Positions 18,776 to 36,584 of a stretch of 37,717 nucleotides of DNA are shown here, piece by piece (position 1 is the first letter of the stretch; each line of letters opens with the position of its first letter). The DNA is taken from contig JAEURV010000036.1 in the NCBI GenBank assembly GCA_016788465.1, positions 1 to 37,717 on the forward strand. Reading direction: 5' to 3'. Source of the stretch: Nitrospira sp. (GTDB lineage Bacteria > Nitrospirota > Nitrospiria > Nitrospirales > Nitrospiraceae). The translations under genes and the position numbers were made by a program. The notes under the pieces are model-generated. The model searched no databases. It was not told the DNA's origin and saw only the letters and a list, made by a program, of their open reading frames with translations.

Positions 18776-18838
18776 TGGAGCACCTCCTCGCATCACCCGC
18801 ACACCGAGCGCCTATCGCTCGCAAGGGTTTTATAAAGG

Positions 18839-20083
18839 TTAAAAGACCTCCAACACCCGTTTCGTCCAGCTGAACATTTTTTTCGCCCAGGTTCCACCGT
18901 TTCGAAGTCCGGCCGTCTCCAATTCATCGACATGTCGTCGGGCATGCAGCAAGAGACCGACCCCTGTCGAATGACTAGGGTGGCCGACGATATCTCGAAG
19001 TCCGCCAACCCCTGAAGGGACTCCCCGACGTGCCGGCAGGTTCAAGACTCTCTCGGCAGCATCCGGCATCCCTTCCAACAATGAGGTACCTCCGGTGATC
19101 ACCACACCGGCTCCCAACATACCTTCATATCCGGCACGCGTAATTTCTCTCCGGACCAGCTCGAACATCTCATCGACACGAGGCTCTAAGATCTCCGCAA
19201 TATCCCGCCTGGAGAACGTTCGGGGTGGACGGTCTCCGACCGAAGGTACTTGGACGACTTGATGACCAATTACAAACTCGGTCCTTGCGATGCCATGTTG
19301 GGTTTTGATCCTCTCAGCCTCGGTCTGCGACGTCAAGAGACCAATGGCCAGATCCTTGGTTAAATTCTGTCCACCGATCGGGAGAACCGCCGAGTGACGG
19401 ATACTCCCGTCTAAAAAGATGGCGAGATCCGTGGTCCCCCCGCCCAAATCTACCATCACCACACCGAGTTCACGTTCTTCTTGGCTTAGTACCGCTTCGC
19501 TGGATGCCAATGGCTGAAGAATGATGTCGACCACGTCAAGTCCGGCGCGATTCACACTCTTCACGATATTCTGCGCGGACGTCACTGCTCCGGTGATGAC
19601 GTGCACGTTGACTTCCAATCGATTCCCGGACAGGCCTAGAGGCTCCCTCACCCCTTCCTGACCATCCACCATGAATTCTCGAGGTAACACGTGGAGGATC
19701 CTTCGCTCTTGAGGGATCACCGCGAGCGTTCGGGCGCTTTCAATAGCTCGATGGATATCTTCTCGAGTCACCTCCGCACGTTTCAGAGCCACGACACCTT
19801 TGCAGTTTTCGGCCGCGATATGGCTCCCGGCAATGCCGGTGTACACAGAATTGATCTGGACCGCCGCCATCAACTCTGCTTCTTCAACCGCCTTTTTGAT
19901 AGATTCAACGGTGCTTTCAATATCAACCACAACGCCCTTGCGTAGACCTCGTGAAGGGCTCATGCCGACGCCAATAATGTTGAGACCTCCCGCATCGGTC
20001 ATCTCCGCGACGATCGCGCAGATCTTTGTCGTCCCAATGTCGAGTCCGACTAAGATTTGATCTCGCTTCGGCACCGCAATCAC
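18839..20083 (-). CDS. ftsA: Cell division protein FtsA
   Basis: A 414-residue actin-fold protein that anchors FtsZ to the membrane. It shows G-L-D-I-G-T-T-K-I at the N-terminus, the D-L-G-G-G-T-T-D-L phosphate loop, G-G-x-x-L-T-x-D-L and V-I-T-G-G-T-S-L-L-E-G adenosine motifs. The C-terminus, with A-K-K-M-F-S-W-T-K-R, has the look of the membrane-targeting amphipathic helix. The start is GTG, overlapping the ftsQ stop (GTGA); the preceding G-run of nine bases serves as ribosome-binding site and could allow slippage. ftsQ-ftsA-ftsZ is the canonical order. Confidence 0.98.
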   Translation of the reverse strand: MIAVPKRDQILVGLDIGTTKICAIVAEMTDAGGLNIIGVGMSPSRGLRKGVVVDIESTVESIKKAVEEAELMAAVQINSVYTGIAGSHIAAENCKGVVALKRAEVTREDIHRAIESARTLAVIPQERRILHVLPREFMVDGQEGVREPLGLSGNRLEVNVHVITGAVTSAQNIVKSVNRAGLDVVDIILQPLASSEAVLSQEERELGVVMVDLGGGTTDLAIFLDGSIRHSAVLPIGGQNLTKDLAIGLLTSQTEAERIKTQHGIARTEFVIGHQVVQVPSVGDRPPRTFSRRDIAEILEPRVDEMFELVRREITRAGYEGMLGAGVVITGGTSLLEGMPDAAERVLNLPARRGVPSGVGGLRDIVGHPSHSTGVGLLLHARRHVDELETAGLRNGGTWAKKMFSWTKRVLEVF

Positions 20084-20940
20084 CCCCCCCCATCCCGTAC
20101 GATGATTCGATTATCGTACCGGAGATCTACCTCGCTGACCCCACGCCCTGCCCCGTCAAAATTTAGTGATTTCAACGTTGGTTTGACGCGTTGGAACCGC
20201 TCCCATTGTTCCTCAACCGATTCCTCTCCAAAGCGAAATCGAACGCCCTGAATGAACGCCACAAGATTTGTCTGGTTTTCGGCCTGCACCTGCAAGCGCC
20301 CATCAGACGTGCGTCCAATGACTCTTGCGAGTTCGATGCCAGACATGATTGCCCGTCGCACCACGTCGGTCCCCTTCAGCAGGCCATCGAGGTCAACCCC
20401 CGTCACCAGTGGAAACGCGTCATCATCGACCTGCCCCAGCTTGGTCAGCACATACCCTTCTTCATCACTCAGGAAGTTCTGAGATGCCGCACGGACGACG
20501 GCAGCAGGCTTTCGTTCGATCACCGCGATCCTCAACTCATGGAACGGAACTCGCGAGACTTCAGCCTCTTTAATCCAAGGGTGGGATTCAATCTTACCCT
20601 CTATGCTGGCGGTAACGATCTGATAGAGCGGCACGCCCTGCTTGACCTGAGCCAGCTCGATCACTTTTTCCTTATCGAGATGATGCAGACCTTCAACCGT
20701 GATCGTATGGATTTCGAGCAACTCACGGACCATACGACTGGAGTAGGTCACCCCCATCGTGAGCAGCCATCCAAAAATCGCCACACCCGCCAACACCACA
20801 CCGACACGAACCACAACATTTTGCCTGACACGCCGCGTCCGCCCGGTTTGCTTCACCGCCCGTTCCCCAGTTGAATCCTTCCATCGATTCATGCGTGGGA
20901 TTGCAGGCTTAACTCGTCGTGGCTTGAACGAGAATCGCAT
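20080..20940 (-). CDS. ftsQ: Cell division protein FtsQ/DivIB
   Basis: A 286-residue single-pass membrane protein. A basic cytoplasmic N-terminus (about 1-45) is followed by one hydrophobic segment (about 46-68), a POTRA domain starting at I-T-V-E-G-L-H-H-L, and the FtsQ domain with I-E-R-K-P-A-A and D-E-E-G-Y-V-L. It links early ring proteins to FtsW and FtsI in the divisome. Its ATG overlaps the ddl stop by one base (TAATG) with a GGAG site inside ddl. The gene ends in nine G residues directly before TGA, giving three terminal Gly codons. Confidence 0.95.
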   Translation of the reverse strand: MRFSFKPRRVKPAIPRMNRWKDSTGERAVKQTGRTRRVRQNVVVRVGVVLAGVAIFGWLLTMGVTYSSRMVRELLEIHTITVEGLHHLDKEKVIELAQVKQGVPLYQIVTASIEGKIESHPWIKEAEVSRVPFHELRIAVIERKPAAVVRAASQNFLSDEEGYVLTKLGQVDDDAFPLVTGVDLDGLLKGTDVVRRAIMSGIELARVIGRTSDGRLQVQAENQTNLVAFIQGVRFRFGEESVEEQWERFQRVKPTLKSLNFDGAGRGVSEVDLRYDNRIIVRDGGG

Positions 20941-21926
20941 TACTCAGACTCCGGTTTGGTACGCGACGCATAACGACCCGCACGAACCAAAGCCGACTGC
21001 AAGATCCGCTCGACCAAGTCGTCGTAACCGATGCCAACCTGTGCGGCAGCCATTGGCAGCAGACTCGTCGCTGTCATGCCGGGAACCGTATTGATTTCCA
21101 ATACATAGGGTTGGCCACGTGGTGTGATGCGAAAGTCAACGCGTGCAGCTCCCTCGCAACCAAGCACCTTGTAGCTGCGGGAGGCCAAGTCTCCTATTTT
21201 CTGCATCACCTTAGTCGGAAAAGGAGCCGGGCAGAGATATTGCGTCTTGCCCTTCTGGTATTTAGCCGCGAAATCATAGAACCCTTCCGGGGCCACAATT
21301 TCTATTGCCGGAAGGACCTTCGTCTCATCCTCCTTGGCCGTCCCGAGAATCGACACGGTCGCTTCATGCCCGGGAATATACTTCTCCACCATTGCTTCAA
21401 GATCGTAGCGATGAGCCAACGCAAGCGCTTCCTTCCACTGAGCCATACGCTGCACAACCGTTACCCCGATCGTAGAGCCCTGCGAGACCGGCTTGACGAC
21501 TACCGGCAACTGGAGTTTGGCCTCTCTCAGGACCTTCGTCAGCGATGGACGGTCCCCTTGCCGAATAACCGTTCCTGGAGGTACCGGAACACCATGCTCA
21601 GCCAGTAGGGTCTTCGTCATGACCTTATGCATTCCCACAGCACTCGCCCGCACACCTGAGCCTGTGTACGGAATCCCAATAGTCTCAAGGAACCCCTGAA
21701 CCAAGCCGTCCTCGCCCCCTGCCCCATGAAGCGAGAGAAAGGCGATGGCAACGTCCTGTTCCTTCAGGTCTTGATACAGCCGGTCGCCGACATCGATGGC
21801 CACCGCTTCATACCCACGACGAAGCAATGCCTGATGGACCGCTTGGCCCGTCTTTAGAGAAATTTCACGCTCTGAAGATCGGCCTCCCATCAGCACCGCG
21901 ATACGCTTATCCGTTAGTTTCCCCAT
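20940..21926 (-). CDS. ddl: D-alanine-D-alanine ligase
   Basis: A 328-residue ATP-grasp ligase that joins two D-alanines for the pentapeptide stem. The N-terminal G-G-R-S-S-E-R-E-I-S-L motif, H-G-x-G-G-E-D-G, Y-T-G-S-G-V, the K-P-V-S-Q-G-S-T-I-G-V nucleotide loop and E-I-N-T-V-P-G-M-T are all present. The ligase product is used by MurF, encoded in the same cluster. It follows murB by about 22 bases and overlaps ftsQ by one base. The family also includes D-Ala-D-Lac ligases; nothing in the visible motifs suggests that variant, but specificity was not tested. Confidence 0.96.
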   Translation of the reverse strand: MGKLTDKRIAVLMGGRSSEREISLKTGQAVHQALLRRGYEAVAIDVGDRLYQDLKEQDVAIAFLSLHGAGGEDGLVQGFLETIGIPYTGSGVRASAVGMHKVMTKTLLAEHGVPVPPGTVIRQGDRPSLTKVLREAKLQLPVVVKPVSQGSTIGVTVVQRMAQWKEALALAHRYDLEAMVEKYIPGHEATVSILGTAKEDETKVLPAIEIVAPEGFYDFAAKYQKGKTQYLCPAPFPTKVMQKIGDLASRSYKVLGCEGAARVDFRITPRGQPYVLEINTVPGMTATSLLPMAAAQVGIGYDDLVERILQSALVRAGRYASRTKPESE

Positions 21927-21948
21927 TGGATATCAGGATGTCCTTAAC

Positions 21949-22893
21949 TCACGCTTGACCCACTAATTTCAACTCCAGCGCCAACTTCACTCCCGTCTTT
22001 CGAGCAACCTGGGCGCGAACTTTTCTGATAAGGGCAAGTACATCGGTGGCCCTCGCCTTCCCCTGATTCACGATAAAGTTGGCATGTTTGGTCGAGACAC
22101 AAGCATCGCCGACCGATACACCCTTGAGTCCTGCGGCCTCAACGACCCGCCCTGCTGAATCATTGGCAGGGTTCTTGAAAACACACCCGGCGCTGGGAAG
22201 GGTCAGTGGCTGTGTCTCCCGTCGATAGCGCAAATACTCCTTCACCACCTTCTCAATATCAGTGCGCACTCCCGGTCTCAGTTGGAGCCATACTCCGACC
22301 ACAATTCCTGACGGCAGGAACGCCCGCCGATACTCGAATGTGATGGATTCCGCAGGACAGTCCAGAACCTCGCCGTTTTTCCCCACAACTCGAACAGCTT
22401 TAACAGAATCCTTCATCTCGCCGAGTCTCGTCCCAGCATTCATCACGACGCACCCCGCCACCGTCCCAGGAATCCCGGCAGCCCATTCCAATCCCGCCAG
22501 CGAACGACGGATGGCATGGCCAATCAATGTCGGCATCCCGACACCACCCTCGGCATAGAGCACCGATCCGGATTCCTCCTTGATCGTACGCAGCTTCGCC
22601 AGGCTGACCACGACACCTCGAATACCCTTGTCCCGAACCAGGAGATTCGTCCCTCCCAACACGAAGATTGGAAGTTTCTGTTCATGCGTTTGTTTGACCA
22701 AACGAATAACATCCTCCACATCAGCCGGTTCCACCAATACATCGGCTGGACCGCCGATCCGAAAGGAAGTGTACTCGCTCAACGGTGCGTTGAAGCGAAC
22801 CTGCCCCCGAATACCAGCTACCGCTGACCGAAGTTTTCGCTGCATCCTCGTGTGTGACGCGGCCCTTCCGCGCCTGATAGATATACGTTTCAT
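21949..22893 (-). CDS. murB: UDP-N-acetylenolpyruvoylglucosamine reductase
   Basis: A 314-residue flavoenzyme that reduces UDP-GlcNAc-enolpyruvate to UDP-MurNAc. FAD-binding motifs are Y-T-S-F-R-I-G-G-P-A (41-50), G-G-T-N-L-L-V (80-86) and A-G-I-P-G-T-V-A-G-C-V. The catalytic segment reads P-S-A-G-C-V-F-K-N-P, placing Cys237 where E. coli MurB has the proton-donating Ser; Cys at this site occurs in some lineages. The start ATG at 22893 lies seven bases after the murC stop and has no clear ribosome-binding site; a downstream ATG at 22845 is an alternative. Confidence 0.95.
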   Translation of the reverse strand: MKRISIRRGRAASHTRMQRKLRSAVAGIRGQVRFNAPLSEYTSFRIGGPADVLVEPADVEDVIRLVKQTHEQKLPIFVLGGTNLLVRDKGIRGVVVSLAKLRTIKEESGSVLYAEGGVGMPTLIGHAIRRSLAGLEWAAGIPGTVAGCVVMNAGTRLGEMKDSVKAVRVVGKNGEVLDCPAESITFEYRRAFLPSGIVVGVWLQLRPGVRTDIEKVVKEYLRYRRETQPLTLPSAGCVFKNPANDSAGRVVEAAGLKGVSVGDACVSTKHANFIVNQGKARATDVLALIRKVRAQVARKTGVKLALELKLVGQA

Positions 22894-22899
22894 GAGTCA

Positions 22900-24393
22900 T
22901 TACGCGGACTCAAGTCGTGCAAGAATTCCGGTCCCTGCCTTCCAAATGTCACCCGCCCCCAAAGTCAAGACGAGATCCCCTGCCTGAAGCTGAGATAAGA
23001 CCTGATCTGGAAGGGTCTCCTTGCGTTCGATGAACGTCACGGCAGGATGACCGGCCGCCTTCACCCTTTCAGCCAAGGCAGCCCCGGTCACTCCCGGTAG
23101 AGGTTGTTCTCCGGCTGGATAAATATCGGTCATAAACAGGACATCGGCATGATCAAACGCGTGGGCAAACTCTCCAAGACAATCACGCGTTCGGCTATAG
23201 CGATGAGGCTGAAAAAGGACGACCAGGCGACGATCCCAACCCTGTTTTGCCGCAGCCAGCGTGGCTTTGACCTCCGTAGGATGATGCCCATAGTCATCGA
23301 CCACCATGATCCCACCGGCCTCGCCTCGCAAATGAAATCTCCGTTCAACACCTGTAAACGCAGCTAACCCTTTACGAATCAAATCGACCGGAACATCCAG
23401 TTCCATCCCGATCGCAATGGCAACGAGCGCGTTCGAAACATTGTGGATCCCCGGCACTGTCAACCGGAACGGACCAAGGTTCTTCCCACGAAAATGTACG
23501 CGGAAGTCCGCGCCCCATTGTTTAAGACTGACATCCGTCGCGAGAAAGTCCGGCGCCACTCCATCACGTTCGCGCAGCCCGTACGTCTGGTAGCGCTTGA
23601 CGAGGTGAGGAAAGAGCGCGACGAGGCGATCGTCGTCTGCACACAACACTGCTACCCCATAGAAGGGAATCTTATTGATGAACTCGAGAAAGCTCTCGTT
23701 GATTCGCTCCATCGACCCATAATGATCCAGATGCTCACGGTCCAAATTCGTTACAGCAACAATGGTGGGAGAAAGGCGCAGAAAAGACCCGTCACTTTCA
23801 TCCGCCTCGGCCACCAGAAGGTCCCCACGACCAAGCCGTGCGTGGCTACCTAACGCGTTCACCTTGCCGCCGATTACCATCGTTGGATCAAGTCCACCCT
23901 GCGCGAGTACAGTGGCGACCATCGATGTCGTGGTCGTCTTTCCGTGGGCGCCGGCAATAGCGACTCCGAATTTTAATCGCATAAGCTCTGCCAACATCTC
24001 TGCCCGCGGAATCACGGGGATCTGCATCGCTTTTGCTTTCACTACCTCAGGATTACTTCCTGCCACAGCAGATGAAATGACTACGACCTGCGCCGCGCCC
24101 ACATTTGACTCCTGATGGCCGATGAAAATCCTCCCGCCGAGCTCCTCCAGACGCTTTGTTGTCTCCGACCCCTGCAGATCAGATCCCGTCACCGTGTAGC
24201 CCATGGTGAGCAACACTTCTGCAATACCGCTCATACCGGCCCCACCGATGCCAACAAGATGAATTTGTTGGATTTTGCGAAACATTCCCATACGACTCAC
24301 CCGTTGCCGTCCAAGAGAAGAGCCTGTCCCAAGTGTTGATTCTCCAAGCGTCTTACCCTCCGGCCTTTCTAAAAGAAGATTGGTTGTTGTCAT
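22900..24393 (-). CDS. murC: UDP-N-acetylmuramate-L-alanine ligase
   Basis: This Mur ligase adds L-Ala to UDP-MurNAc. The N-terminal dinucleotide-like motif [12 protein letters not shown], the ATP loop GAHGKTT (148-154), and later D-E-S-D-G-S-F and D-D-Y-G-H-H-P-T-E motifs are intact. The listed start gives 497 residues with a 36-residue extension before the Rossmann domain; it has a good GGGAG site but overlaps the end of murG by 41 bases. A shorter form starting at 24291 or 24285 would match the usual family length. PgeF, which edits MurC errors, is encoded downstream in the same cluster. Confidence 0.95.
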
Positions 24394-25480
24394 GCGTCAC
24401 TCCCATCATCGCGTAACATTCTCCGACGATCCGTTCGCCGGCATCAATTCGTCGCATCGCCAAACTCCCTCGGCGCATGCTGTTCCACCGCTGCGAGTCC
24501 GATAGGATCGCGTCCACCATCGTGCTCAATGTCGCTCCAGTCAGGTCTGTCTGCGGTAGCACCACGGCCCCACCTGCAGCTTCCATGGCTCGAGCATTCT
24601 TCATCTGATGATCATAAATGGCCGTGGGTAGCGGAATCAGGATGGCGGGCTTTCCACAAGCCGCCAGCTCAGCGATCGTCATAGCCCCAGCACGAGCTAC
24701 CACCACATCCGCAGCCCGTAACGCTGTTGGCATGTCATACAGAAACGGAACTACGGTGGCAGAGACCCCCAGAGCCTTATAGCCCTCCCTGACCCGCTCA
24801 TAGTCTTTCTCACCTGTTTGGTGTGTGATCGTCAGTGCAGGCAAGCGCGCTCTGAGTAAAGGCAGTCCTTCCAGCACCGCACTATTGATCGCCTTGGCCC
24901 CCTGACTTCCACCAAAGATCAGCAGATGTTGTCTATTCAGATTGATGATCTCCCGGCTCTCAGGTTGATGATTGAGAAACTCCTGCCTGATCGGTGTTCC
25001 TACAACGTGCACCTTGTGTCGATCAAAGTGTGTTGCCGCCGACTCAAACGCCAGGAAAATCCGTTGTGCAAGTGGACCGACCACTTTGTTGGCCAAGCCA
25101 GGATATGCATTCGGTTCCAAAATCACGCGTGGAATCCCCCTCAGTGCGGCCGCTACCAGCACCGTTGGACTCGTATAACCACCAACCCCAATCACGAGAT
25201 CAGCCTGTCGTTGTCCCAAGAGATGCCATGACTGCCAGATTCCCGCTGGAACAGACAGCACAGCCTGAAGAACCTCCAGTAATCCCTTCCCCATCACCGG
25301 CTTGGCGGTAATCATCGCCAGCTCAAATGCCTCATGCAGGAGAACGCGAGACTCAATCCCTCGCTTCGTGCCAATAAAGAGTATCTTCGTGGAAGAGTCT
25401 CGCCTTAAGAATTCTCGTGCCAGGGCGATGGCCGGGTAGAGATGACCTCCGGTGCCGCCTGCGGCAATAACAATCGTCAT
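24353..25480 (-). CDS. murG: UDP-N-acetylglucosamine-lipid I GlcNAc transferase
   Basis: A 375-residue GT28 glycosyltransferase that turns lipid I into lipid II at the inner membrane face. [10 protein letters not shown] at the N-terminus, [14 protein letters not shown] and [16 protein letters not shown] mark the family, with D-H-Q-x-x-N-A near the sugar-nucleotide site. The ATG overlaps the ftsW stop by four bases (ATGA). The same frame stays open upstream through all of ftsW, but that extension is not MurG-like. Its end overlaps murC. Confidence 0.97.
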
Positions 25481-26682
25481 CCTTGTTTTGCCCGCCTCTG
25501 CCCACTCTGATGTTCTATCTCCTCTCGTCCGGCATGGCGATCCCGGGAAATGCTCAACAACATTCCCACTCCTGCCAAGCTCACGACAAGAGAGGATCCT
25601 CCATAACTGACGAATGGTAGAGTGAGCCCTTTTGTCGGCACGAGTCCCGTCACCACGCAAGCGTTGACTAATACCTGAACCCCGATCAGGGTGGTGATGC
25701 CGATCCCCAGATACCGCCCAAATGGAACCCGTGCACGGGTCGAAATCTGAAATCCTCTGATCATGAACAATACAAATAACAGGATAATGACGCCGGCACC
25801 GACAAAACCCAACTCTTCGCCAATCAGCGCCAAGACGAAGTCGGTGTGTGCTTCGGGCAGAAAAAACAGTTTCTGTTTCCCCTCTCCCAACCCTACCCCG
25901 AAAAGGCCGCCGCTGCCGAACGCCAGAAACGATTGGGTAATCTGAAACCCGGTATCGGATGCATCGCGCCATGGCTCCAAGAACGCCATAAGCCGTTGAC
26001 GTCGATATTCGGTGGATAAAACAAGTGCCAGTCCGATCGGCACCGCACAGAGCACCAATATCGACAGATGAGATAAGCGTGCGCCCCCTACGAATAAAAG
26101 GCTGCCTGTGACCATCCCCAACACCACGACCGTCCCTAAGTCCGGCTCCATCAGAACCAATCCGCTGAGGAGACCGACCACGAGCAGCACAGGAAGAAGC
26201 CCTGCTTGAAATTCTTGGAGTCGGTCCTCCTTCCTTGCTAAGTACGCAGCGAGATAAATGACCACCGCCAACTTCAACATTTCGGCTGGTTGAATTGACA
26301 CTGGCCCAACTCCCAGCCACCGTCGAGCCCCATTGACCGCTGTACCCAAGGAAGGAATCAGGACTATCACCAAGAGCGCCGTTATGCCTCCGAGTAAGGG
26401 ACGGGATAGCCGTTTCCACCAGACATAGTCCATGCGAGACAACGCATGCAGAAGGCTCAATCCCACCACCAACCAAACACATTGTCGCTTGAGGTAGTAC
26501 CAGGAATCGTGATGCCGATTTACGGCCAGGACCGCGCTGGCGCTGAACACCATGACCAAGCCGACGATAGTCAGCATCACCGTCACGCACAACAAGACCT
26601 GATCCATTCCGACCCGCTGCGGAACCCGCGAGCCTTTCGTATCCCATGGTAGTGTCAAAGTCCCATCCGCCTTCTGTGGCAT
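25477..26682 (-). CDS. ftsW: Septal peptidoglycan polymerase FtsW (SEDS family)
   Basis: A 401-residue polytopic membrane protein with about ten hydrophobic segments. SEDS signatures include R-R-W-L-G-V-G-P-V-S-I-Q-P-A-E, the Y-R-R-Q-R-L-M-A-F-L segment, G-E-E-L-G-F-V-G and P-F-V-S-Y-G-G-S-S. FtsW polymerises lipid II at the septum together with FtsI, encoded upstream. Position between murD and murG is canonical for FtsW rather than RodA. It lies 34 bases after murD with no strong ribosome-binding site. Confidence 0.96.
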   Translation of the reverse strand: MPQKADGTLTLPWDTKGSRVPQRVGMDQVLLCVTVMLTIVGLVMVFSASAVLAVNRHHDSWYYLKRQCVWLVVGLSLLHALSRMDYVWWKRLSRPLLGGITALLVIVLIPSLGTAVNGARRWLGVGPVSIQPAEMLKLAVVIYLAAYLARKEDRLQEFQAGLLPVLLVVGLLSGLVLMEPDLGTVVVLGMVTGSLLFVGGARLSHLSILVLCAVPIGLALVLSTEYRRQRLMAFLEPWRDASDTGFQITQSFLAFGSGGLFGVGLGEGKQKLFFLPEAHTDFVLALIGEELGFVGAGVIILLFVLFMIRGFQISTRARVPFGRYLGIGITTLIGVQVLVNACVVTGLVPTKGLTLPFVSYGGSSLVVSLAGVGMLLSISRDRHAGREEIEHQSGQRRAKQG

Positions 26683-26716
26683 TGCTCAGCGTCAATGTCC
26701 TCTGCGGTGCCGCCTC

Positions 26717-28126
26717 TTAAGCCGGCAAAGATTTCACCGCATCCTTAAATTGCCTCCCTCGGTCTTGGTAGTCGGCAAACATATCGAAACTCGCACAGGC
26801 CGGGGACATCAGCACGACATCACCTGCACGTGCTCCTGAAGCCGCCAACCCGACGGCTTCTTGCAGACTCGCAGCCCGCTCGATGGCTCGATAACCCTGC
26901 ACAGCATCAGCGATGAGCGGCGCCGCTTCTCCGATTAAAATGAGCCCTTTTACTCGCTGATGGATGGCAGGAGCCAACCGCGAGAAATCTCCACCCTTAT
27001 CGCGTCCGCCGGCAATCAGCCAAATTGGCTGCTCAATACTATGTAATGCCTTCAAGGTCGCATCGACATTGGTTCCTTTCGAGTCGTTGATAAAGCGTAC
27101 GCCTCGACGATCACGGACCACCTCCAATGCATGCTCCAGACCTGGAAACTCTCTGAGGACTCGACGCACAGCGTCCAGTGGACACCCACTCAAGAGCGCA
27201 TACATCACCGCCACCATGGCGTTCTCAATATTGTGAGCACCAATGATCTTGAGTTCACTCCTGGTACAAATCTCCTGCGTCCGGCCATCAATGGTGGTCA
27301 TAATGCGATCATGTTCAAGATAGGCTCCTCCCGTCAGGTCTGATGGTAATGATGCACCCCTCGTGAAGCCGTAGGGTTTTGCCTTTACCCCATGTCGTAG
27401 CGCACCAACCCGTGGATCATCGATATTAAAGAGGGCAATATCCAATCCCGTCTGATTCTCAAAAATCCTGTTTTTTGCAGCAAGATATTCTGCAATAGAC
27501 TCATACCGATCCTGATGATCGACGGTCACATTGAGGATTGCTGCAATCCAGGGATGAAACTGCTCGACCGTCTCGAGTTGAAAGCTGGAAACTTCAACCA
27601 CGGCGGCATCATACGGACAGGACCGTCCCTCCGACACGGCACGTAACGACAAAAGAGCCGCTTCGCTAAAGGCAGTCCCAAGATTTCCACCGACAAATAC
27701 CTGTTTCCCGCTCGCCTGCAACATTTTCCCTATCATCGTGACCGTCGTACTTTTCCCATTTGTGCCAGTCACCGCCAGGATGGGAACGGGTATGAACCTC
27801 GATGCAAGCTCAAGCTCGCTGATGACCTTCACGCCTCGACGACGGACGCGCTCCAACGCCTCCATCCGATAGGGCACACCGGGACTAATGACGACTAGCT
27901 CAGCCGTTGTCAGAGCCGTTTCATAGTTACTTCCCAACACGACGTTGATTACCGATTCATCAAGGGTATTCAGTACCCCAAGTAGCTCTCCCCGATCTTT
28001 CCGATCCGCAACAGTCACGACTGCGCCAGCCGCCTGCAGAAGGTGGGCAGCAGCGCCCCCGCTCCGTGCCATTCCGACGATGGTCACCCGTCTGCCTTGC
28101 AATTGCTTCGTGTCCACTTCCACCAT
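26717..28126 (-). CDS. murD: UDP-N-acetylmuramoylalanine-D-glutamate ligase
   Basis: A 469-residue Mur ligase that adds D-Glu to UDP-MurNAc-L-Ala. The N-terminal [11 protein letters not shown] domain-1 motif, S-P-G-V-P, the ATP loop GTNGKST (121-127), N-V-T-x-D-H-Q-D-R and N-D-S-K-G-T-N segments are all present. It begins six bases after mraY, with AAGG as ribosome-binding site. Length and domain order are usual. Confidence 0.97.
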
Positions 28127-28132
28127 CTCACG

Positions 28133-29209
28133 CTACCTTAATTTGAGGGTACTCAGGCTCAGCAGTGCGAGCAAAATCGCGACGATCCAGAGACGAACCA
28201 CCACTTTGGGTTCTTCCCAACCCTTCATCTCAAAGTGATGGTGAATCGGGGCCATGAGAAAGATACGCTTGCCGCGAGATTTGAACGAGACAACTTGAAA
28301 AATAACCGACACAGCCTCAATGACAAAGACCCCACCGACCATCAGCAGGAGCAGCTCATGCTTACTGATCACCGCCACCGTTCCAAGCGCCGCACCAAGC
28401 GGGAGAGACCCAACATCCCCCATGAATACTGAAGCGGGATAGGTATTGAACCAGAGAAAACCGAGGCTCGATCCCAAGATCGCAGCAGTAAAGACGGCCA
28501 ACTCTCCTGCTCCTTCGATGTGGGGAATCAGAAGATATTCGGACATCAATCTGTGACCAGTCACATAGGCGACGACGGTGTACGCCAAAGCCGTGATCAT
28601 GATCGGCCCAATAGCCAACCCGTCAAGACCGTCCGTAAGATTTACAGCGTTGGAACTACCAACAATGACGATGATGGCAAACACGATGTAAAACCACCCT
28701 AAGTCCGGCGTGAAGCTTTTAAAGAACGGCACACTCAACTTCGTGTTGTACTCCGGCAGACAATAAAGAACCACTGCGACGATGAGCGCCACTGCGATTT
28801 GTGCGGTAAACTTTTGCGCCGCGGAGAGCCCCTTCGATCGAGATTTGATGAACTTGAGATAATCATCAACAAACCCAATGGCACAGAAACCCAGCGTTGC
28901 TCCCAACACCAACCAGATATGCGGTCGTGAGATGTCCGCCCACAACAACGTTGACAGTGTCACTGCAAAGATAATCAGGATCCCGCCCATCGTCGGAGTC
29001 CCACTCTTGGCAAGATGACGTTTCGGTCCGTCGTCGCGCACCTGCTGACCCAACTTGATTTCTTGGAGCTTTCTGATCACCCACGGGGCCAGCACAAATG
29101 CGATCAGAAAGGCAGTGACCGCCGCATAAATGATGCGAAAACTCTGATAGCGAAACACATTTAGAAATGAAAATTGCGTATGAAATGGGTAGAGCCAGAT
29201 ATACAGCAT
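28133..29209 (-). CDS. mraY: Phospho-N-acetylmuramoyl-pentapeptide transferase
   Basis: A 358-residue membrane enzyme that forms lipid I from UDP-MurNAc-pentapeptide and undecaprenyl phosphate. About ten membrane segments are visible. Signatures include K-S-G-T-P-T-M-G-G, F-V-D-D-Y-L-K with the aspartate pair, N-A-V-N-L-T-D-G-L-D-G-L-A, F-M-G-D-V-G-S-L, and the C-terminal A-P-I-H-H-H-F-E loop. It follows murF by 14 bases. All catalytic Asp and His motifs are intact. Confidence 0.98.
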   Translation of the reverse strand: MLYIWLYPFHTQFSFLNVFRYQSFRIIYAAVTAFLIAFVLAPWVIRKLQEIKLGQQVRDDGPKRHLAKSGTPTMGGILIIFAVTLSTLLWADISRPHIWLVLGATLGFCAIGFVDDYLKFIKSRSKGLSAAQKFTAQIAVALIVAVVLYCLPEYNTKLSVPFFKSFTPDLGWFYIVFAIIVIVGSSNAVNLTDGLDGLAIGPIMITALAYTVVAYVTGHRLMSEYLLIPHIEGAGELAVFTAAILGSSLGFLWFNTYPASVFMGDVGSLPLGAALGTVAVISKHELLLLMVGGVFVIEAVSVIFQVVSFKSRGKRIFLMAPIHHHFEMKGWEEPKVVVRLWIVAILLALLSLSTLKLR

Positions 29210-29223
29210 GGTGTAGACGAGAC

Positions 29224-30672
29224 CTACGAAGCTTTCTTTGTCACACCTGGGAGTCCCCGGAGTGCATCGGCAACAAGTTCTAACTTCATACCACGTGACG
29301 CTTTGATCAACACTACATCGCCAGGTTTGGCAATGGCTTTCACTGCGGTGGCTGCACCGGAAGCATCTGAGACTTCCACAATGTGGGAGGGATCTTGCCC
29401 AGCATTTCTTGCCCCCTCGACAAAACCACGCCCCAACGGTCCACAGGCGATAAGTTGATCGATTCTGTGCCGTGCGACGAACCCACCAACCTCTTCGTGC
29501 ATCCGGGCAGCATTCTCGCCGAGCTCTAGCATGTCCCCTATTACGGCGATCTTTTTCCCCTTAGCTCTGATCTGAGCTAAAAGCTGAACAGCCGCTTTCA
29601 TTGATGCCGGGTTGGCATTGTAGCAATCAATGATCAGCTTGATACCACGACACACACAGACCTGAGACCTCATGTCAGCTGGTCGAAACCTCGAGAGCCC
29701 TTGAGCAATCGCCGATCCAGAGAGCCCCAGGACTGTACCCACCGCTGCTGCTGCCAGTGCATTCGAAATGTTGTGCTCTCCTTGAACTCGAATACGGACA
29801 GAAGTACGGCGTACCTTTCCTGGGAGCATCAGCTGAAAGATCGTCCCAGTGCGCTTATCCGACGCCAGATTCATTGCACGGACATCGGCTTTGGCTGACA
29901 GGCCAAAAGACACCACACGGCATCGGGCTCGCGCTGCCAGATAGTCATAGTAGGAATCATCAGCATTCAGAATCGCCGTCCCATTCGCCGGGAGGAAATC
30001 GAGCAATTCTGCTTTCGCTTGAGCAGACACATCCATGGATCCAAAAAACTCAAGATGATCCGGTCCGATGTTGGTAATAATTCCAATCGTCGGGTTGGCG
30101 ACCTCGCACAATCTACTCGTCTGTCCAATGTTGTCGACCCCCATCTCGATGACCGCTCCTTGATGCCGTGCATGGAGGCGGAACAGGGTTTGGGGAACCC
30201 CCAATCGGTTGTTCAGATTACCTTCCGTCTTGAGGATCTTCCAGCGATGCGCCATGACACTCGCCACCATTTCTTTGGTCGTCGTTTTCCCGTTACTGCC
30301 CGTAACTGCAACGACCGGAATGCTGAAGCGACGTCGAAAGTTTGCGGCCAGCTGCTGGTAGGCATACACCGGATCAGGAACACCAAGAATCACCGGCCTC
30401 ATCCGTTTTGACAGCGACCTCTCAATACATAGAGCGGCGTCGTAGGACTCACGCACGATCGCACCAACTGCGCCCTGCAGGAGTGCCGTTTTGACAAAAT
30501 CATGTCCATCGAATCGTTCGCCTCGGATTGCGACAAAGAGATCCCCACGTCGAAGAGACCGAGTATCGAGACAGATTCGCCGGACACGTTGCTTTATTCC
30601 GTCGGGCCTGTCTCCGCTTAAGATTCGACCGTCGATCGCCCTCTGCACCTCTTCGACGGAAAAGAGTGTCAT
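29224..30672 (-). CDS. murF: UDP-MurNAc-tripeptide-D-alanyl-D-alanine ligase
   Basis: A 482-residue Mur ligase that adds D-Ala-D-Ala to the tripeptide stem. The ATP loop GSNGKTT is at about 125-131; the N-terminal D-T-R-x-L-R-R-G-D-L-F-V-A-I-R-G segment and D-C-Y-N-A-N-P match MurF. I chose the ATG at 30670-30672 because AAGGA lies six bases upstream; a frame from 30693 has no such site. It lies about 40 bases after murE and uses the dipeptide made by Ddl. Confidence 0.97.
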   Translation of the reverse strand: MTLFSVEEVQRAIDGRILSGDRPDGIKQRVRRICLDTRSLRRGDLFVAIRGERFDGHDFVKTALLQGAVGAIVRESYDAALCIERSLSKRMRPVILGVPDPVYAYQQLAANFRRRFSIPVVAVTGSNGKTTTKEMVASVMAHRWKILKTEGNLNNRLGVPQTLFRLHARHQGAVIEMGVDNIGQTSRLCEVANPTIGIITNIGPDHLEFFGSMDVSAQAKAELLDFLPANGTAILNADDSYYDYLAARARCRVVSFGLSAKADVRAMNLASDKRTGTIFQLMLPGKVRRTSVRIRVQGEHNISNALAAAAVGTVLGLSGSAIAQGLSRFRPADMRSQVCVCRGIKLIIDCYNANPASMKAAVQLLAQIRAKGKKIAVIGDMLELGENAARMHEEVGGFVARHRIDQLIACGPLGRGFVEGARNAGQDPSHIVEVSDASGAATAVKAIAKPGDVVLIKASRGMKLELVADALRGLPGVTKKAS

Positions 30673-30713
30673 GGCTGTCCTTCTCCACACCAACCCATTT
30701 CTATCGCCCTGGG

Positions 30714-32216
30714 CTAAGCGTGAAATCTGAGTCTTTGAATTGCATGACGCGCCACCTCACGATCGTCGAAGTGATGCTTCGTGGTCCCGATAATCTGGTA
30801 GTCCTCATGCCCCTTCCCTGCGATCAACACAGTATCCGCTGCGCGTGCTTCTCGTACGGCCATTTCGATCGCCTCCCTCCGATCAGGAATCTTGTGATAT
30901 TCCACGTGAGGCCGGTGCTGCAAAGCCCTTATTACACCCTGCTCTACTTCCTCCAGAATCGCATGCGGATCTTCCGTTCTTGGATTGTCCGAGGTGAGTA
31001 TCACGACATCACTGGAACGCACAGCAGCTTCTCCCATTTTTGGACGCTTGCCTCGATCACGATCCCCACCGCAGCCAAACACCGTGATAATCCGTCCTGT
31101 CTTCACTGCCTCAGCCGCCATCAGCAGTCGAATCAACGCATCCTCGGTATGGGCATAGTCGACCACGACGGTGAATGGCTGGCCAGCCATCACTCGCTCG
31201 AACCGTCCGGGAACATTCGTAATCCGCGTGACGGCATAATGAATCTGATCGGGCGTTGCTCCTTCATGAAGGGCCACCCCAATAGCCGCTAATAGATTGT
31301 AGACGTTGTGTTCCCCAACGAGCTGACTCTCGATCCTAAAATTCCCCTTCGGAGTTACAGCGTTAAAGGCCGTTCCCTGGAGAGACAGCCGCACATCTTC
31401 GGCACGGAGGTCTGCTTTGGCCTTGAGCCCATAGGTCCACACTGGCACAGGACATCGCTCAATGATACGACCGCCATAGGGATCATCGACGTTAACGATT
31501 GCCCGCTTATTGTTTTTATGACCAATGGCCATTTCGGTAAAGAGTCGCAACTTTGCCTGAAAGTAGGCTTCCATCGTTCCATGAAAATCGAGATGGTCCT
31601 GTGTCAAATTTGAAAAAACAGCTACATCATACTCACACCCGGTCGTACGATCCTGGGCCAAGGCATGTGAGGAAACTTCCATGACAGCCGCCCTGCATCC
31701 ATCAGTCACCATCTTCGCGAGCAACTCCTGGAGTTCAAGCGCTCCAGGAGTCGTATGGGAGGCGGGAAGTATGATATCTCCAATTTGATAAGCAACTGTG
31801 CCGATCATCCCGACTTGGGCACCGACAGCTTCTAAGAACGCTTTACACACGTAAGTGGTTGTAGTCTTCCCGTTCGTTCCTGTCACGCCGACTATCCTCA
31901 GTCGTGACGAGGGATCTCCATAGAAATGACTCCCCAGAAAACCGAGCGCTTTTCGGGAGTCCTCGACCCGAACAAAGGGAACCGTCCCTGTCTTCATGGG
32001 TTGCTGTGCAAGCACGCCCACGGCACCCCCGTTCACCGCCTTCTGAATAAATTGATGCCCATCCACTCGTTCACCTTTCACCGCCACGAAGAGGCTTCCT
32101 ATTGACACCGCGCGAGAGTCATCAGTGATTCCCTTCACCGCTATCGTGAGGTCACCACGACGCTCAAGAATCGGCACGCGCCCCTCAAGGGCTTGAAGCA
32201 TGGCGGCAAAAGTCAT
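30714..32216 (-). CDS. murE: UDP-MurNAc-L-Ala-D-Glu-meso-diaminopimelate ligase
   Basis: A 500-residue Mur ligase for the third stem residue. The ATP loop GTNGKTT is at about 113-119, and the specificity motif D-N-P-R at 410-413 is the one found in meso-diaminopimelate enzymes; lysine-adding enzymes usually carry a different tetrad. This points to A1-gamma-type peptidoglycan, in line with a Gram-negative cell. It follows ftsI by 27 bases with an AGGA ribosome-binding site. Confidence 0.97.
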   Translation of the reverse strand: MTFAAMLQALEGRVPILERRGDLTIAVKGITDDSRAVSIGSLFVAVKGERVDGHQFIQKAVNGGAVGVLAQQPMKTGTVPFVRVEDSRKALGFLGSHFYGDPSSRLRIVGVTGTNGKTTTTYVCKAFLEAVGAQVGMIGTVAYQIGDIILPASHTTPGALELQELLAKMVTDGCRAAVMEVSSHALAQDRTTGCEYDVAVFSNLTQDHLDFHGTMEAYFQAKLRLFTEMAIGHKNNKRAIVNVDDPYGGRIIERCPVPVWTYGLKAKADLRAEDVRLSLQGTAFNAVTPKGNFRIESQLVGEHNVYNLLAAIGVALHEGATPDQIHYAVTRITNVPGRFERVMAGQPFTVVVDYAHTEDALIRLLMAAEAVKTGRIITVFGCGGDRDRGKRPKMGEAAVRSSDVVILTSDNPRTEDPHAILEEVEQGVIRALQHRPHVEYHKIPDRREAIEMAVREARAADTVLIAGKGHEDYQIIGTTKHHFDDREVARHAIQRLRFHA

Positions 32217-32243
32217 CGCCGTTTCCTAATACCGTCAGGATTA

Positions 32244-33953
32244 CTACAGTGCCATTGCCAGAGTAACGGGTTCGTCCGACCCCACACCTAAGTAGCTCAG
32301 CACCTGTTCTCCGACGCGACTAAACACGGGAGCCGCCACCGTCCCACCCCACGCGTCACCCTGAGGTTCATCGATCACCACAATCATGGCCAGCCGCGGG
32401 CTGTCCGCAGGGACATACCCCGCAAATGATGTCACATATCGGGAAGCAGCGTAGCTACCCGTTCGAGGATCAATCTTTTGAGCCGTGCCCGTCTTCCCAG
32501 CAACCCGGAATCCCGGAATGGCGGCCTTTGCCCCGGTCCCATCGGTGACGACACCTTCTAACACTTTTGTCATTGTACTGGCGGTTTCTGGAGAAACAAC
32601 CCGTCGCCTCACCTGGGGAGACATTCGCTTCAGAAGATGCCCCTCGGGACTGCGAATCTCTGAAACCACGTGCGGTCTCATTAATACCCCTTCGTTTGCC
32701 AGAGCAGCGATCGCAGAGACCATCTGAATCGGGGTGACCCCTATTTCCTGTCCTATCGAAATAGAAGCAACCGAACGCCGCCCCCAGTCCTTCACACTTC
32801 TGAGCAACCCGGCCCCTTCCCCGGGAAGATCAATCTCCGTCTTCTGCCCAAACCCAAACGCCTGAAGATATCGATGAAGTCGCTGTTCTCCCAACATCAT
32901 GCCGGTCTTTGCCGCACCAACGTTACTTGACTTCTGAATGACCTGCGCAAAGGAAACCCAGCCCAGTTTTTCATGATCATGAATGACCGTGTTGGCAACG
33001 GCCATACGACCGTGTTCCCCAAATACCATCGTATTCGGTCTCATAACCCGCTCTTCAATGGCTGCGGCCGCTAGCACAGCCTTCAGCGTCGATCCCGGCT
33101 CATACGCATCCGCAAGAGCCTTGTTCCGCCATCGATCAGGGCTGAGATTCGAAACGACGTTGGGATCGAATCGCGGACTGACCGCCATGGCCAACACCGC
33201 TCCTGTCCGTGGATCCAACACAATCATCGTACCGGACTTTGCCTGAGCGCGAGTCACGGCATCCTCAAGTTCTCTCTCCGTAATGTACTGAATAACCTCG
33301 TCGATCGTAAGTACGAGGTTATGCCCAGGTGTCGGATTTCGTTCCGTCAAATCCGCAGGAAACACCGAACGCCCGAGAGCATCACGTTGGAGGACCATCA
33401 TCCGCTTTTCACCACGCAGATACGATTCATACCGATGCTCAATACCCTCCAGTCCTTCACCATCCATTCCGGCAAAACCCAGGACATGTGACAGAAACGG
33501 GCCCTTTGGGTAAAACCGGCGTCCCTCCATGACAACCCCTACTCCATCAAGGGATAATCGCTCAAGGCGGCGCCCCTGTTCAGGGTCTAACTTTCGAGCC
33601 AGCCACACAAAACTCCGCGTCTGTCGAAGCTTGCGCTCCAATTCATCACTCCGAACATGTAAAACAGGGGCAAGCACCCGGGCCGTTTTCGTTGGGCTGT
33701 CTAATGTGGTCGGAACTCCAAAAGCGGACGGCACTTCAACGTTCATGGCCAAGACCTTACCGTGCCTGTCGACAATCGTACCGCGCGCTCCCTCCAGAGA
33801 GACCGTCTTCCGATGCTGTCGGTCTGCCTTGACTGATAATTCCGCAGCCTGCCAGACTTGCAGCGTTACCAGACGGAATAGAACGACCCCATATCCACAC
33901 AGCAATAGAAGCAACAAGACGTACTGCCGACCGCTTGGAATAAAACCGGTCAC
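32244..33953 (-). CDS. ftsI: Septal penicillin-binding protein 3 (FtsI, class B transpeptidase)
   Basis: A 569-residue protein with a short cytoplasmic N-terminus, one membrane segment (about 11-32), a pedestal domain and a transpeptidase domain. The three active-site motifs are S288-T-L-K, S342-S-N and K487-T-G. No PASTA domain follows. It crosslinks the glycan made by FtsW at the septum. Translation starts at GTG, which overlaps the ftsL stop (TAGTG), and a perfect AGGAGG site precedes it, so the two are tightly coupled. Confidence 0.97.
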   Translation of the reverse strand: MTGFIPSGRQYVLLLLLLCGYGVVLFRLVTLQVWQAAELSVKADRQHRKTVSLEGARGTIVDRHGKVLAMNVEVPSAFGVPTTLDSPTKTARVLAPVLHVRSDELERKLRQTRSFVWLARKLDPEQGRRLERLSLDGVGVVMEGRRFYPKGPFLSHVLGFAGMDGEGLEGIEHRYESYLRGEKRMMVLQRDALGRSVFPADLTERNPTPGHNLVLTIDEVIQYITERELEDAVTRAQAKSGTMIVLDPRTGAVLAMAVSPRFDPNVVSNLSPDRWRNKALADAYEPGSTLKAVLAAAAIEERVMRPNTMVFGEHGRMAVANTVIHDHEKLGWVSFAQVIQKSSNVGAAKTGMMLGEQRLHRYLQAFGFGQKTEIDLPGEGAGLLRSVKDWGRRSVASISIGQEIGVTPIQMVSAIAALANEGVLMRPHVVSEIRSPEGHLLKRMSPQVRRRVVSPETASTMTKVLEGVVTDGTGAKAAIPGFRVAGKTGTAQKIDPRTGSYAASRYVTSFAGYVPADSPRLAMIVVIDEPQGDAWGGTVAAPVFSRVGEQVLSYLGVGSDEPVTLAMAL

Positions 33954-34294
33954 TAGTACCTCCTGGCCAGAAGCTCATTCTTCGCGACTCGAACCCCTAC
34001 TGGCACAGCATCGGCGACCGCCACAGGCTTAATATTGCCCGGTCTAAATTGAACCAATATGACCTGTCCTTGCTGAGGCGGACTCATTCCCAACTCCTTG
34101 GTCGCTACCCGTGCAATTCGCCCAGATGCACTCAATGTGGAAAACTGCACCCTTAATTCGTCACGCTGCCGTTCTAAGGCAGTTTTATCGCGCTTGAGCC
34201 GTTCGATCTGATAACCAACACGGACCATATCGACTCGCTCCCACACGAACACAAACACCAGACACAGCCCAAGAAGAACAGCCAAGATTTTCAT
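33953..34294 (-). CDS. ftsL: FtsL-like division protein
   Basis: A 113-residue bitopic protein: one N-terminal hydrophobic segment (about 3-20), then a basic, heptad-like coiled coil (about 28-60, I-E-R-L-K-R-D-K-T-A-L-E), then a short tail with A-T-K-E-L-G-M. FtsL proteins diverge strongly, so the name relies on topology, coiled coil, size and position between rsmH and ftsI. FtsL would pair with FtsB and FtsQ to activate FtsWI. It starts eight bases after the rsmH stop. Confidence 0.85.
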   Translation of the reverse strand: MKILAVLLGLCLVFVFVWERVDMVRVGYQIERLKRDKTALERQRDELRVQFSTLSASGRIARVATKELGMSPPQQGQVILVQFRPGNIKPVAVADAVPVGVRVAKNELLARRY

Positions 34295-34302
34295 GACAGC
34301 TC

Positions 34303-35220
34303 CTACTTCGGTTGACGTTCAGCAACGCGCAATTTTGCGCTCCGTGACCGGGGGTTCACCTCACACTCTTCCCTGGACGGAACAACTGGCTTCTTCGTGC
34401 ACAAGGAAAGCCTTGCATGAGGTTCGTGCGTGAGAGACCGAAACGTATGCTTGACCATGCGGTCTTCAAGAGAATGAAAAGAAATGGCGCAGATTCTCCC
34501 CCCCTCTAACAGAACGTCTGTTGCATCTCGAAGTGAAGATTCAATACTCTCAAGCTCTTGATTCACTGCAATGCGAATCGCCTGAAATGTCCGCGTCGCG
34601 CAATGAATCCGTCCATGTCGATAGGACGCCGGCACTGCACGAGCGATAATCGCAGCTAAGGCCTCTGTTGTTTCGATCCGACACCTCTGCCGCTCCCGCA
34701 CAATGGCCCGAGCAATCCGCCGTGCATACCGTTCCTCTCCAAACTGATAAATGATGTCGGCAAGCACAGACTCTGAACTGGTATTCACCACATCAGCGGC
34801 AGTGGAACCAATTGACTGATCCATGCGCATATCCAGAGGACCGCTCTGCTGAAAGCTGAAACCTCTTGCGGCATTATCAATCTGTGGAGAGGAGACCCCG
34901 AAATCAAAGAGCACCCCCCCCACTGTCGTGATACCCACCTCTGCGAGATGCCGTTTTAAATCTCGATGGTTCCCATGCTGCAACACGATACGATCTCCGA
35001 ACCGACTCAACCGCTCTCGACAGAACTCAATCGCTTCAGGATCGCGATCTAAACCTATGACTTTCGTTCCAGGTGGAGCAGCTTCCAAAATCAATTCAGC
35101 ATGCCCACCATACCCCACCGTGCAATCTAAAATAGTGATCGGACGATTGGAAAGAAGCCATTCGCATACTTCTTTTCCAAGCACTGATATATGCTGCAAT
35201 TCAGCAATGATCTTTTTCAC
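34303..35220 (-). CDS. rsmH: 16S rRNA (cytosine-1402-N4)-methyltransferase
   Basis: A 305-residue SAM-dependent methyltransferase that modifies C1402 of 16S rRNA in the decoding centre. It shows H-I-S-V-L-G-K-E-V at the start, the SAM motif D-C-T-V-G-Y-G-G-H-A, F-D-F-G-V-S-S-P-Q-I-D, R-G-F-S-F-Q, M-D-Q-S and the late I-S-F-H-S-L-E-D-R motif. The start is GTG with a G-rich upstream stretch. It is the first gene of the dcw cluster here, about 27 bases behind the predicted transcription start; mraZ, which often precedes rsmH, is absent. Confidence 0.97.
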   Translation of the reverse strand: MKKIIAELQHISVLGKEVCEWLLSNRPITILDCTVGYGGHAELILEAAPPGTKVIGLDRDPEAIEFCRERLSRFGDRIVLQHGNHRDLKRHLAEVGITTVGGVLFDFGVSSPQIDNAARGFSFQQSGPLDMRMDQSIGSTAADVVNTSSESVLADIIYQFGEERYARRIARAIVRERQRCRIETTEALAAIIARAVPASYRHGRIHCATRTFQAIRIAVNQELESIESSLRDATDVLLEGGRICAISFHSLEDRMVKHTFRSLTHEPHARLSLCTKKPVVPSREECEVNPRSRSAKLRVAERQPK

Positions 35221-35243
35221 CCACTAGCCACCACTTTTCCCCA
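35221..35243 (-). promoter_or_regulatory. MraZ-box-like 10-bp direct repeats at the rsmH start
   Basis: On the minus strand TGGGG, TGGTG and TGGGT begin at 35243, 35233 and 35223, exactly ten bases apart with five-base spacers. MraZ of E. coli binds TGGGN repeats separated by five bases. Two of three units match; the middle has one deviation. The repeats lie in the transcribed leader and touch the GTG start. Confidence 0.45.
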
Positions 35244-35253
35244 CACTTGAGGG

Positions 35254-35281
35254 AGTATACTCTCGCATTTCTGGTTGTCAA
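35254..35281 (-). promoter_or_regulatory. Predicted sigma70 promoter of the dcw cluster
   Basis: TTGACA (35281-35276), 16 bases and TATACT (35259-35254) on the minus strand form a near-consensus promoter. Transcription should begin near 35247, leaving a leader of about 27 bases before the rsmH GTG. Since the genes down to divIVA have short gaps or overlaps, it could drive the whole 21-kb cluster. Confidence 0.75.
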
Positions 35282-35311: not shown

Positions 35312-35480
35312 CCTGTAGATAACGTGCAAGGTGGCACTCATCATGGGGGGCTAATTCTTCTGCCGCTATAGGTCTAAGTGGCCATACCATTTACCATTTT
35401 TCTAACCAACCCCACCCTTCAAGTCGTCCGACTCTTTGAGTTTCATTGACTTCTGCAACCTTGGGTTAGAGAATGATTTT

Positions 35481-36584
35481 ATGCGGAAAACTACTCTAAC
35501 TGATTTCCTTACAGGTCTTTCCCTTTGGGTCACCGCTATGTTTCTCGTCACACCGCAAGCCATGGGGAAAGACTTCAACCCTGACAACCCCCTCAATCTA
35601 CCGGCAGCGGTTTCTTGGTGCCCTGACAAAACCCCTGACCAACAGATTGCAGCCGGGAAAAGCTCAGGCTGTAAACCCCTCTACGACCAGCACGCCGTGG
35701 AATCGTTCCAAGAGTCTGCAAGAAAGCGAGGCTTTGACCTTCCAGACCGGGACCCAATCAAGATCGTTGACCTACAAAATGCTGCGTCGAAATTTTCCGA
35801 TCGTTATCGAACGTTTGTGTCATGCTGTCTCACCGATGGTGATGCACCAGCAGAAATTGTAGATCTGATCGATGAGGCAAACCACATCCTCAAAGCCGTC
35901 CAACAAAAAGGGGTCTACAATTCTAGCGGGTTTGGAAAGGGACAGGGAGCCACGGCCGCAGGCCCTGGGAACGGCACAGGAAACGGCGGGCTAGGCGGTG
36001 GCCCTGACATCGCCCCAAAACTTGGGACGTTTGCGCGGCAATTCACTCTCAGCCAAATTGTCGGGACCGTCGCACGGGCCCGTGAGGACCTACTTCGTCT
36101 GAACGACCGTTTGGAACGGTTGAATGAGGCACACCAGAACCTTAAAGAGTTGGAGTATGAAAGCAGCGGACGCGCCAGATTACGAATTCAGGACGAGGAA
36201 GAAGCAATCAAGAGGGAGTTCCAGACTAAAAAGCCACCCTCCGCCGCACCAACAGGAATGGATATTCAGGACACCACCTTGAGATCACGAATCGGCGGAG
36301 ATATTGAAGACACCAGATTAAACGCCAATTTCGGAGCGGACATCGGCGCCTCAGTGTCTCCCTATAGCAATGTCAATGAATCCCTTCGCCCTCGGAGAGG
36401 AGAATCTGTCCACGATAGCCAGCTCCCCTATCGACCGGGCACGGAGATTCAAGACACCACCATGTCGAGCAGCACAGGCTTTGAAGTTGATCGCTCGCAA
36501 AATCGTGAAGGAAGTTCCACACTGCCGCAGCGGGGAGTCGGTGCTGCAATCGGCGATTCCGACTTGAACAGCCAACGTCGATAG
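35481..36584 (+). CDS. Secreted protein of unknown function with a coiled coil and 13-residue repeats
   Basis: I do not recognise this 367-residue protein. A signal peptide (about 1-29, cleavage after A-M-G) is followed by a region with Cys47, Cys64 and Cys115-Cys116, a Gly-rich linker (about 149-180), a charged helical stretch likely to form a coiled coil (about 195-250), and a tail (259-367) of degenerate repeats of the form G-x-D/E-I-x-D-T-x-L. Repeat glycines lie at 259, 272, 285, 307, 320 and 333. An in-frame TTG at 35436 is an alternative start, but the ATG at 35481 places the signal peptide at the N-terminus. It is divergent from the dcw cluster and convergent with the next gene. Confidence 0.8.
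   Translation: MRKTTLTDFLTGLSLWVTAMFLVTPQAMGKDFNPDNPLNLPAAVSWCPDKTPDQQIAAGKSSGCKPLYDQHAVESFQESARKRGFDLPDRDPIKIVDLQNAASKFSDRYRTFVSCCLTDGDAPAEIVDLIDEANHILKAVQQKGVYNSSGFGKGQGATAAGPGNGTGNGGLGGGPDIAPKLGTFARQFTLSQIVGTVARAREDLLRLNDRLERLNEAHQNLKELEYESSGRARLRIQDEEEAIKREFQTKKPPSAAPTGMDIQDTTLRSRIGGDIEDTRLNANFGADIGASVSPYSNVNESLRPRRGESVHDSQLPYRPGTEIQDTTMSSSTGFEVDRSQNREGSSTLPQRGVGAAIGDSDLNSQRR
36255..36581 (+). repeat. Degenerate 39-bp coding repeats
   Basis: This part of the secreted-protein gene encodes repeats with a 13-residue period (13, 13, 22, 13, 13 between leading glycines). The common pattern is G-x-[DE]-[IV]-x-D-[TS]-x-[LM]. The DNA copies have diverged, so the repeat is clearest in protein. 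Confidence 0.7.

Follow-up and report, generated by a model that had tools for sequence, protein, structure and literature searches.

A putative MraZ operator is retained at rsmH across an order of Nitrospira relatives in which mraZ lies elsewhere

The stretch of DNA we analyzed (the window; 37,717 nucleotides of Nitrospira sp. contig JAEURV010000036.1) carries a dcw cluster on its minus strand. The first dcw gene here is rsmH (mraW; 34303-35220; PF01795, 367 bits), followed by ftsL (33953-34294; PF04999) and the open frames of the rest of the cluster, ftsI to ftsZ (17579-33953), which we named by reading their translations and which are the expected downstream targets of control exerted at rsmH. 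The rsmH promoter consists of a TTGACA -35 element (35276-35281) and a TATACT -10 element (35254-35259) separated by 16 nt; the same -35 element and spacer recur in the order’s rsmH leaders, and the -10 element is conserved. From the position of the -10 element, transcription is expected to start at 35246-35248. A further open frame of the window (35436-36584; 382 aa) has a glycine-rich middle, repeated ‘xIQDT’ stretches, and no Pfam match.

Ten bases after the -10 element, and 3-5 nt after the expected transcription start, begins a short array of repeats. On the minus strand, positions 35243-35219 read TGGGG-AAAAG-TGGTG-GCTAG-TGGGT, three TGG units at an exact ten-base period. We annotate these as putative MraZ boxes by sequence comparison: unit 1, TGGGG (35239-35243), with a TGG that is invariant in Nitrospira; unit 2, TGGTG (35229-35233), preceded by AAAAG; and unit 3, TGGGT (35219-35223), which lies over the rsmH start codon. 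A preliminary description of the sequence had placed three ten-base-spaced TGG units at 35243, 35233, and 35223, between the promoter and the rsmH start, and had remarked that mraZ is missing before rsmH. The coordinates prove exact and the placement is borne out, with the third unit overlapping the GTG at 35220; the window contains no mraZ, and dcw order there starts with rsmH. The array consists of direct repeats of the TGGG/GTGG type, with five-base units and five-base spacers, just 3′ of the dcw -10 element and over the predicted start site, as is typical of MraZ operators. Unit 2 is TGGTG, and TGGT or TGGA units also occur in the arrays of sister taxa. An autoregulatory MraZ operator lies directly 5′ of mraZ, whereas this array precedes rsmH and the mraZ found elsewhere lacks one.

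We rejected chance as the origin of the array, which is near-unique in the genome and conserved across relatives. The pattern TGGK-N6-TGGK-N6-TGGK has six exact matches in the 3.7 Mb genome, one of them the rsmH leader, which is also its only match without mismatches in the window. The pattern TGGN4AAGTGGN7TGG has a single match in the whole 3.7 Mb genome, this same rsmH leader; by our estimate, the chance of a random match on the right strand of a 60-nt leader is about 1e-4 or less. Across 59 genomes of the order this pattern has 59 matches: 48 fall at rsmH and ten at other places, the remaining one being on a small unassigned contig. A reversed control pattern has 26 matches in the same 59 genomes (manual count), above the number of non-rsmH matches of the array pattern, and the mis-spaced controls TGGN3AAGTGGN6TGG and GTGGN3AAGTGGN7TGG matched no rsmH leader in genome-wide searches. 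Across whole genomes, rsmH is essentially the only place where the array pattern occurs. Two matches far from rsmH in family f3, one of the order’s four families (f1 to f4), lie inside a conserved reading frame and were taken as chance (G048:C2:736278 and G058:C24:156456).

Alignment of the rsmH leader across relatives, a check proposed in the preliminary description, showed that the ten-base spacing is kept while the flanks have diverged. Of the order’s 54 rsmH leaders, 50 carry the triad at an exact ten-base spacing and 48 match TGGN4AAGTGGN7TGG; in full arrays the distance from the -10 element to box 1 is 8-13 nt, with a -35/-10 spacer of 16 nt. Among further leaders, mostly from other genera of the family, 18 of 19 carry the triad, and the nineteenth (G194) has two units only. 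None of the nine TGG bases varies among 33 distinct leaders from Nitrospira, in which pair identity averages 0.89 at the extended positions, 0.40 at other array positions, and 0.33 in the 60 nt 5′ of the -35 element. If the array were a relic of lost MraZ control with no present function, partial arrays would be no surprise, and four f3 genomes (G045, G048, G055, and G058) together with G194 do have degenerate or two-unit arrays despite the presence of mraZ. We nonetheless consider a relic very improbable, given nine invariant TGG bases against neighboring bases with 33-40% pair identity, and an mraZ that is retained and strongly conserved in the order.

A whole-genome search located the genome’s one mraZ on another contig (G000:C64:871-1311). 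The encoded protein contains two MraZ domains (PF02381; 51.3 and 42.5 bits against a cut-off of 23, 91.9 bits for the whole protein), and in NCBIfam it scores best against TIGR00242, whose cut-off of 98.35 it narrowly misses with 94 bits. A DxxxR motif is expected in each half of MraZ, and both are present here as DEKGR and DKTGR. We detected mraZ in 56 of 59 relatives, so that gene and array (50/54 leaders) are conserved together; in G002 the array is present and mraZ was not found in a genome that is 90% complete. The preliminary description had offered two explanations for the array, that mraZ moved and still controls the cluster or that the repeats are remains of lost control, and had named as fatal to its idea an absence of mraZ from the genome or its relatives and an unconserved spacing. 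Neither was seen. With mraZ elsewhere and the array conserved, the first explanation is strongly favored, continued control being the part that we infer; the second is disfavored by the invariant TGG bases amid diverged flanks and by the retention of mraZ.

The separation of the two genes is a property of the entire order. Named records identify the genus as Nitrospira and include N. moscoviensis. None of the order’s 35 scored genomes has mraZ directly 5′ of rsmH, whereas 6/6 class-mates and 80/80 other members of the phylum do (86/86 outside the order). Where both genes of an order member share a contig, they are 0.2-1.3 Mb apart. Because adjacency has been lost throughout the order and only there, and because the order’s MraZ proteins form one clade, a single displacement in the order’s ancestor would be the simplest account. 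On C64, mraZ is accompanied by comF-like, zinc-ribbon, and excisionase-type HTH_17 genes, with a rusA-like gene downstream. When its neighbors were clustered across the order, most genomes had the comF-like gene upstream; the HTH_17 gene was seen in f1 and f2 only, with none in f3 and f4.

The 20 sister genomes read retain mraZ at the head of the cluster, and all of them have a triad of this kind in front of it, with one unit departing from TGG in L214 and L218; at several plus-strand sister loci, the stretch read ended before the mraZ-rsmH gap. We set aside the idea that the array belongs to an old internal rsmH promoter, as sister genomes carry it 5′ of mraZ. At the order’s own mraZ loci, TGGN4AAGTGGN7TGG has no match in any of the 59 genomes, the top score for a triad-like sequence within 1 kb 5′ of mraZ is at the level of shuffled sequence except in family f2, and the apparent own promoters of mraZ in f3 and f4 have no such repeats. 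The usual autoregulatory loop therefore appears to have been cut in the order, and to be absent or replaced, because mraZ is without such an array in three of four families and no longer stands behind its own operator. In f2 (L109, L110, L113, L116, L117, and L121), a TGGCA triad with a ten-base period occurs ~315 nt 5′ of mraZ, just 5′ of the -35 element of the HTH_17-mraZ promoter (in G051, AGTGGCAAGGAGTGGCAAGGAGTGGCATG); candidate roles for it are an HTH_17-binding site and a variant form of the MraZ array. HTH_17 proteins of the excisionase type are able to bind direct repeats, and the gene just before mraZ, which adjoins it in f1 and f2, could in principle encode the reader of the rsmH array. 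We give this, or a reading by any other protein, slightly less credence than a relic: the array is kept in f3 and f4, where no HTH_17 gene was seen beside mraZ, and sister taxa have the same array before mraZ itself.

The array also coincides with signals for translation. Most Nitrospira leaders offer just one in-frame start codon (ATG, GTG, or TTG) 5′ of the conserved RsmH domain, a GTG within box 3 (or within box 2), and the sequence of box 2, often TGGAG(G), resembles a Shine-Dalgarno sequence. In the window this region of boxes 2 and 3 lies at 35218-35235, and the TTG at 35199 could also serve as the rsmH start. Because the start GTG and the Shine-Dalgarno-like sequence fall within the array, operator and translation start region seem to have merged. 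One could go further and regard the repeats as mainly the rsmH translation start region, with box 2 as Shine-Dalgarno sequence, the GTG in box 3, and only a likeness to MraZ boxes. The placement of the sole in-frame start and the frequent TGGAG(G) would suit such a reading, which leaves three units at an exact ten-base period unexplained; in f2 and f4 the same array lies far upstream of the rsmH start (74-196 nt before the RsmH domain), and sister taxa have it in front of mraZ. We judge it as improbable as a different DNA-binding reader.

The MraZ protein itself has an unusual history in the order. MraZ proteins from all four families of the order group together as one fully supported clade, which joins a class-mate weakly (92/87) and none of the five sequences included from other phyla. 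The stem of this clade measures 1.85 changes per site; RsmH of the same genomes has no such stem. MraZ distances are well below those of RsmH within the genus (0.14 vs 0.85) and within the order (0.47 vs 1.52), close to them elsewhere in the phylum (2.17 vs 2.66), and far above them between the order and the rest (4.58 vs 2.63), so that the MraZ/RsmH ratio is 1.74 for order versus rest and 0.81 among the rest. These distances indicate a single episode of great change in MraZ, with strong conservation ever since. The long stem would be compatible with a move into a new expression context and also with a foreign mraZ having taken the place of the original, and the specificity of a protein so diverged from its neighbors’ MraZ could have changed. 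Replacement by a foreign or divergent mraZ, which may or may not read the old operator, draws on the stem and on the ratios; we regard it as unlikely, though the most credible of the alternatives, because the stem is accounted for just as well by rapid change following a relocation and the clade, one across four families, has its weak affinity to a class-mate and to no row from another phylum.

The array resembles known MraZ operators. In E. coli, TGGGAAATTGTGGGGCAAAGTGGG lies just after the -10 element and before mraZ, and related triads occur in Bacillus and Paenibacillus. E. coli MraZ reportedly acts on boxes in the promoter of its own gene and represses itself. In that arrangement mraZ comes first behind the operator, whereas in Nitrospira rsmH comes first and mraZ is elsewhere; the MraZ proteins of the two are 33% identical. 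The MraZ boxes of the E. coli mraZ promoter (Eraso et al, 2014, as cited in PMC8475190) are likewise three TGG units with an exact ten-base period right after the dcw -10 element. Burkholderia cenocepacia MraZ was found by gel shift to bind GTG repeats over the start site (PMC7761207); their seven-base repeats and three-base spacers likewise give a ten-base period 3′ of the -10 element, but there are four of them, before an unrelocated mraZ, rather than three before rsmH. In mollicutes the MraZ site is described as AAAGTG[T/G] repeats (Fisunov et al, 2016, as cited in PMC8475190), and the Nitrospira units similarly read (A)AAGTGG. In M. genitalium, the cell-division cluster is reported to carry the main genomic site of MraZ, as in Nitrospira, and to be repressed by it (PMC8475190); unlike in Nitrospira, Mycoplasma mraZ heads its own cluster. 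The solved relatives of the order’s MraZ are mollicute chains that match it at only 35-42 bits. By analogy with repression in M. genitalium and binding in B. cenocepacia, MraZ should bind the Nitrospira array and repress the cluster.

We propose, with considerable confidence, that the array is the MraZ operator of the dcw promoter, and that mraZ, displaced in the order’s ancestor, acts on it in trans to repress the cluster without the usual autoregulation. In this model, the mraZ coding region would have left the slot between operator and rsmH in the order’s common ancestor and settled after comF and before the rusA-like gene, while the operator was left behind and now abuts rsmH. MraZ made in trans would bind the three ten-base-spaced boxes, cover the transcription start, and block initiation, thereby repressing rsmH-ftsL-ftsI and the genes after them. 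The degenerate or two-unit arrays of the four f3 genomes and G194, the array of G002, where no mraZ was found, and the divergence of the order’s MraZ weigh against this model. The product of rsmH is reported to antagonize MraZ in E. coli (PMC8475190); in Nitrospira, rsmH is left as the first gene under the putative operator.

The MraZ-dcw system is known, and what is new here is an mraZ unlinked throughout an order with its probable operator retained at rsmH. Our literature search, which had partial coverage, found no paper on an order-wide displaced mraZ with a kept operator, although a dcw survey in a subscription journal may hold one; searches on mraZ with Nitrospira and on mraZ-DNA structures returned nothing on point. 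MraZ is among the most widely conserved transcription regulators of bacteria, and to our knowledge there is no settled explanation for its tie to itself and to the dcw cluster. This environmentally important order of nitrifiers, with regulator and operator separated and both kept, offers a natural experiment on the need for linkage and autoregulation. More tentatively, and at a little short of an even chance in our estimation, a self-repressing first dcw gene may have become, order-wide, an unlinked regulator that has a single main target promoter and is expressed from a comF/HTH_17/rusA neighborhood in response to another input, its protein changing fast once around the move and nearly frozen since.

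Two genes beside mraZ merit description. The small HTH_17 protein encoded before it (L108:1326-1553) resembles excisionases and the helix-turn-helix protein of the antiphage system MAD1, the latter at 61 bits, below the cut-off of 80. Directly 3′ of mraZ, a rusA-like endonuclease gene (L108:265-870 and relatives) is present in all four families.
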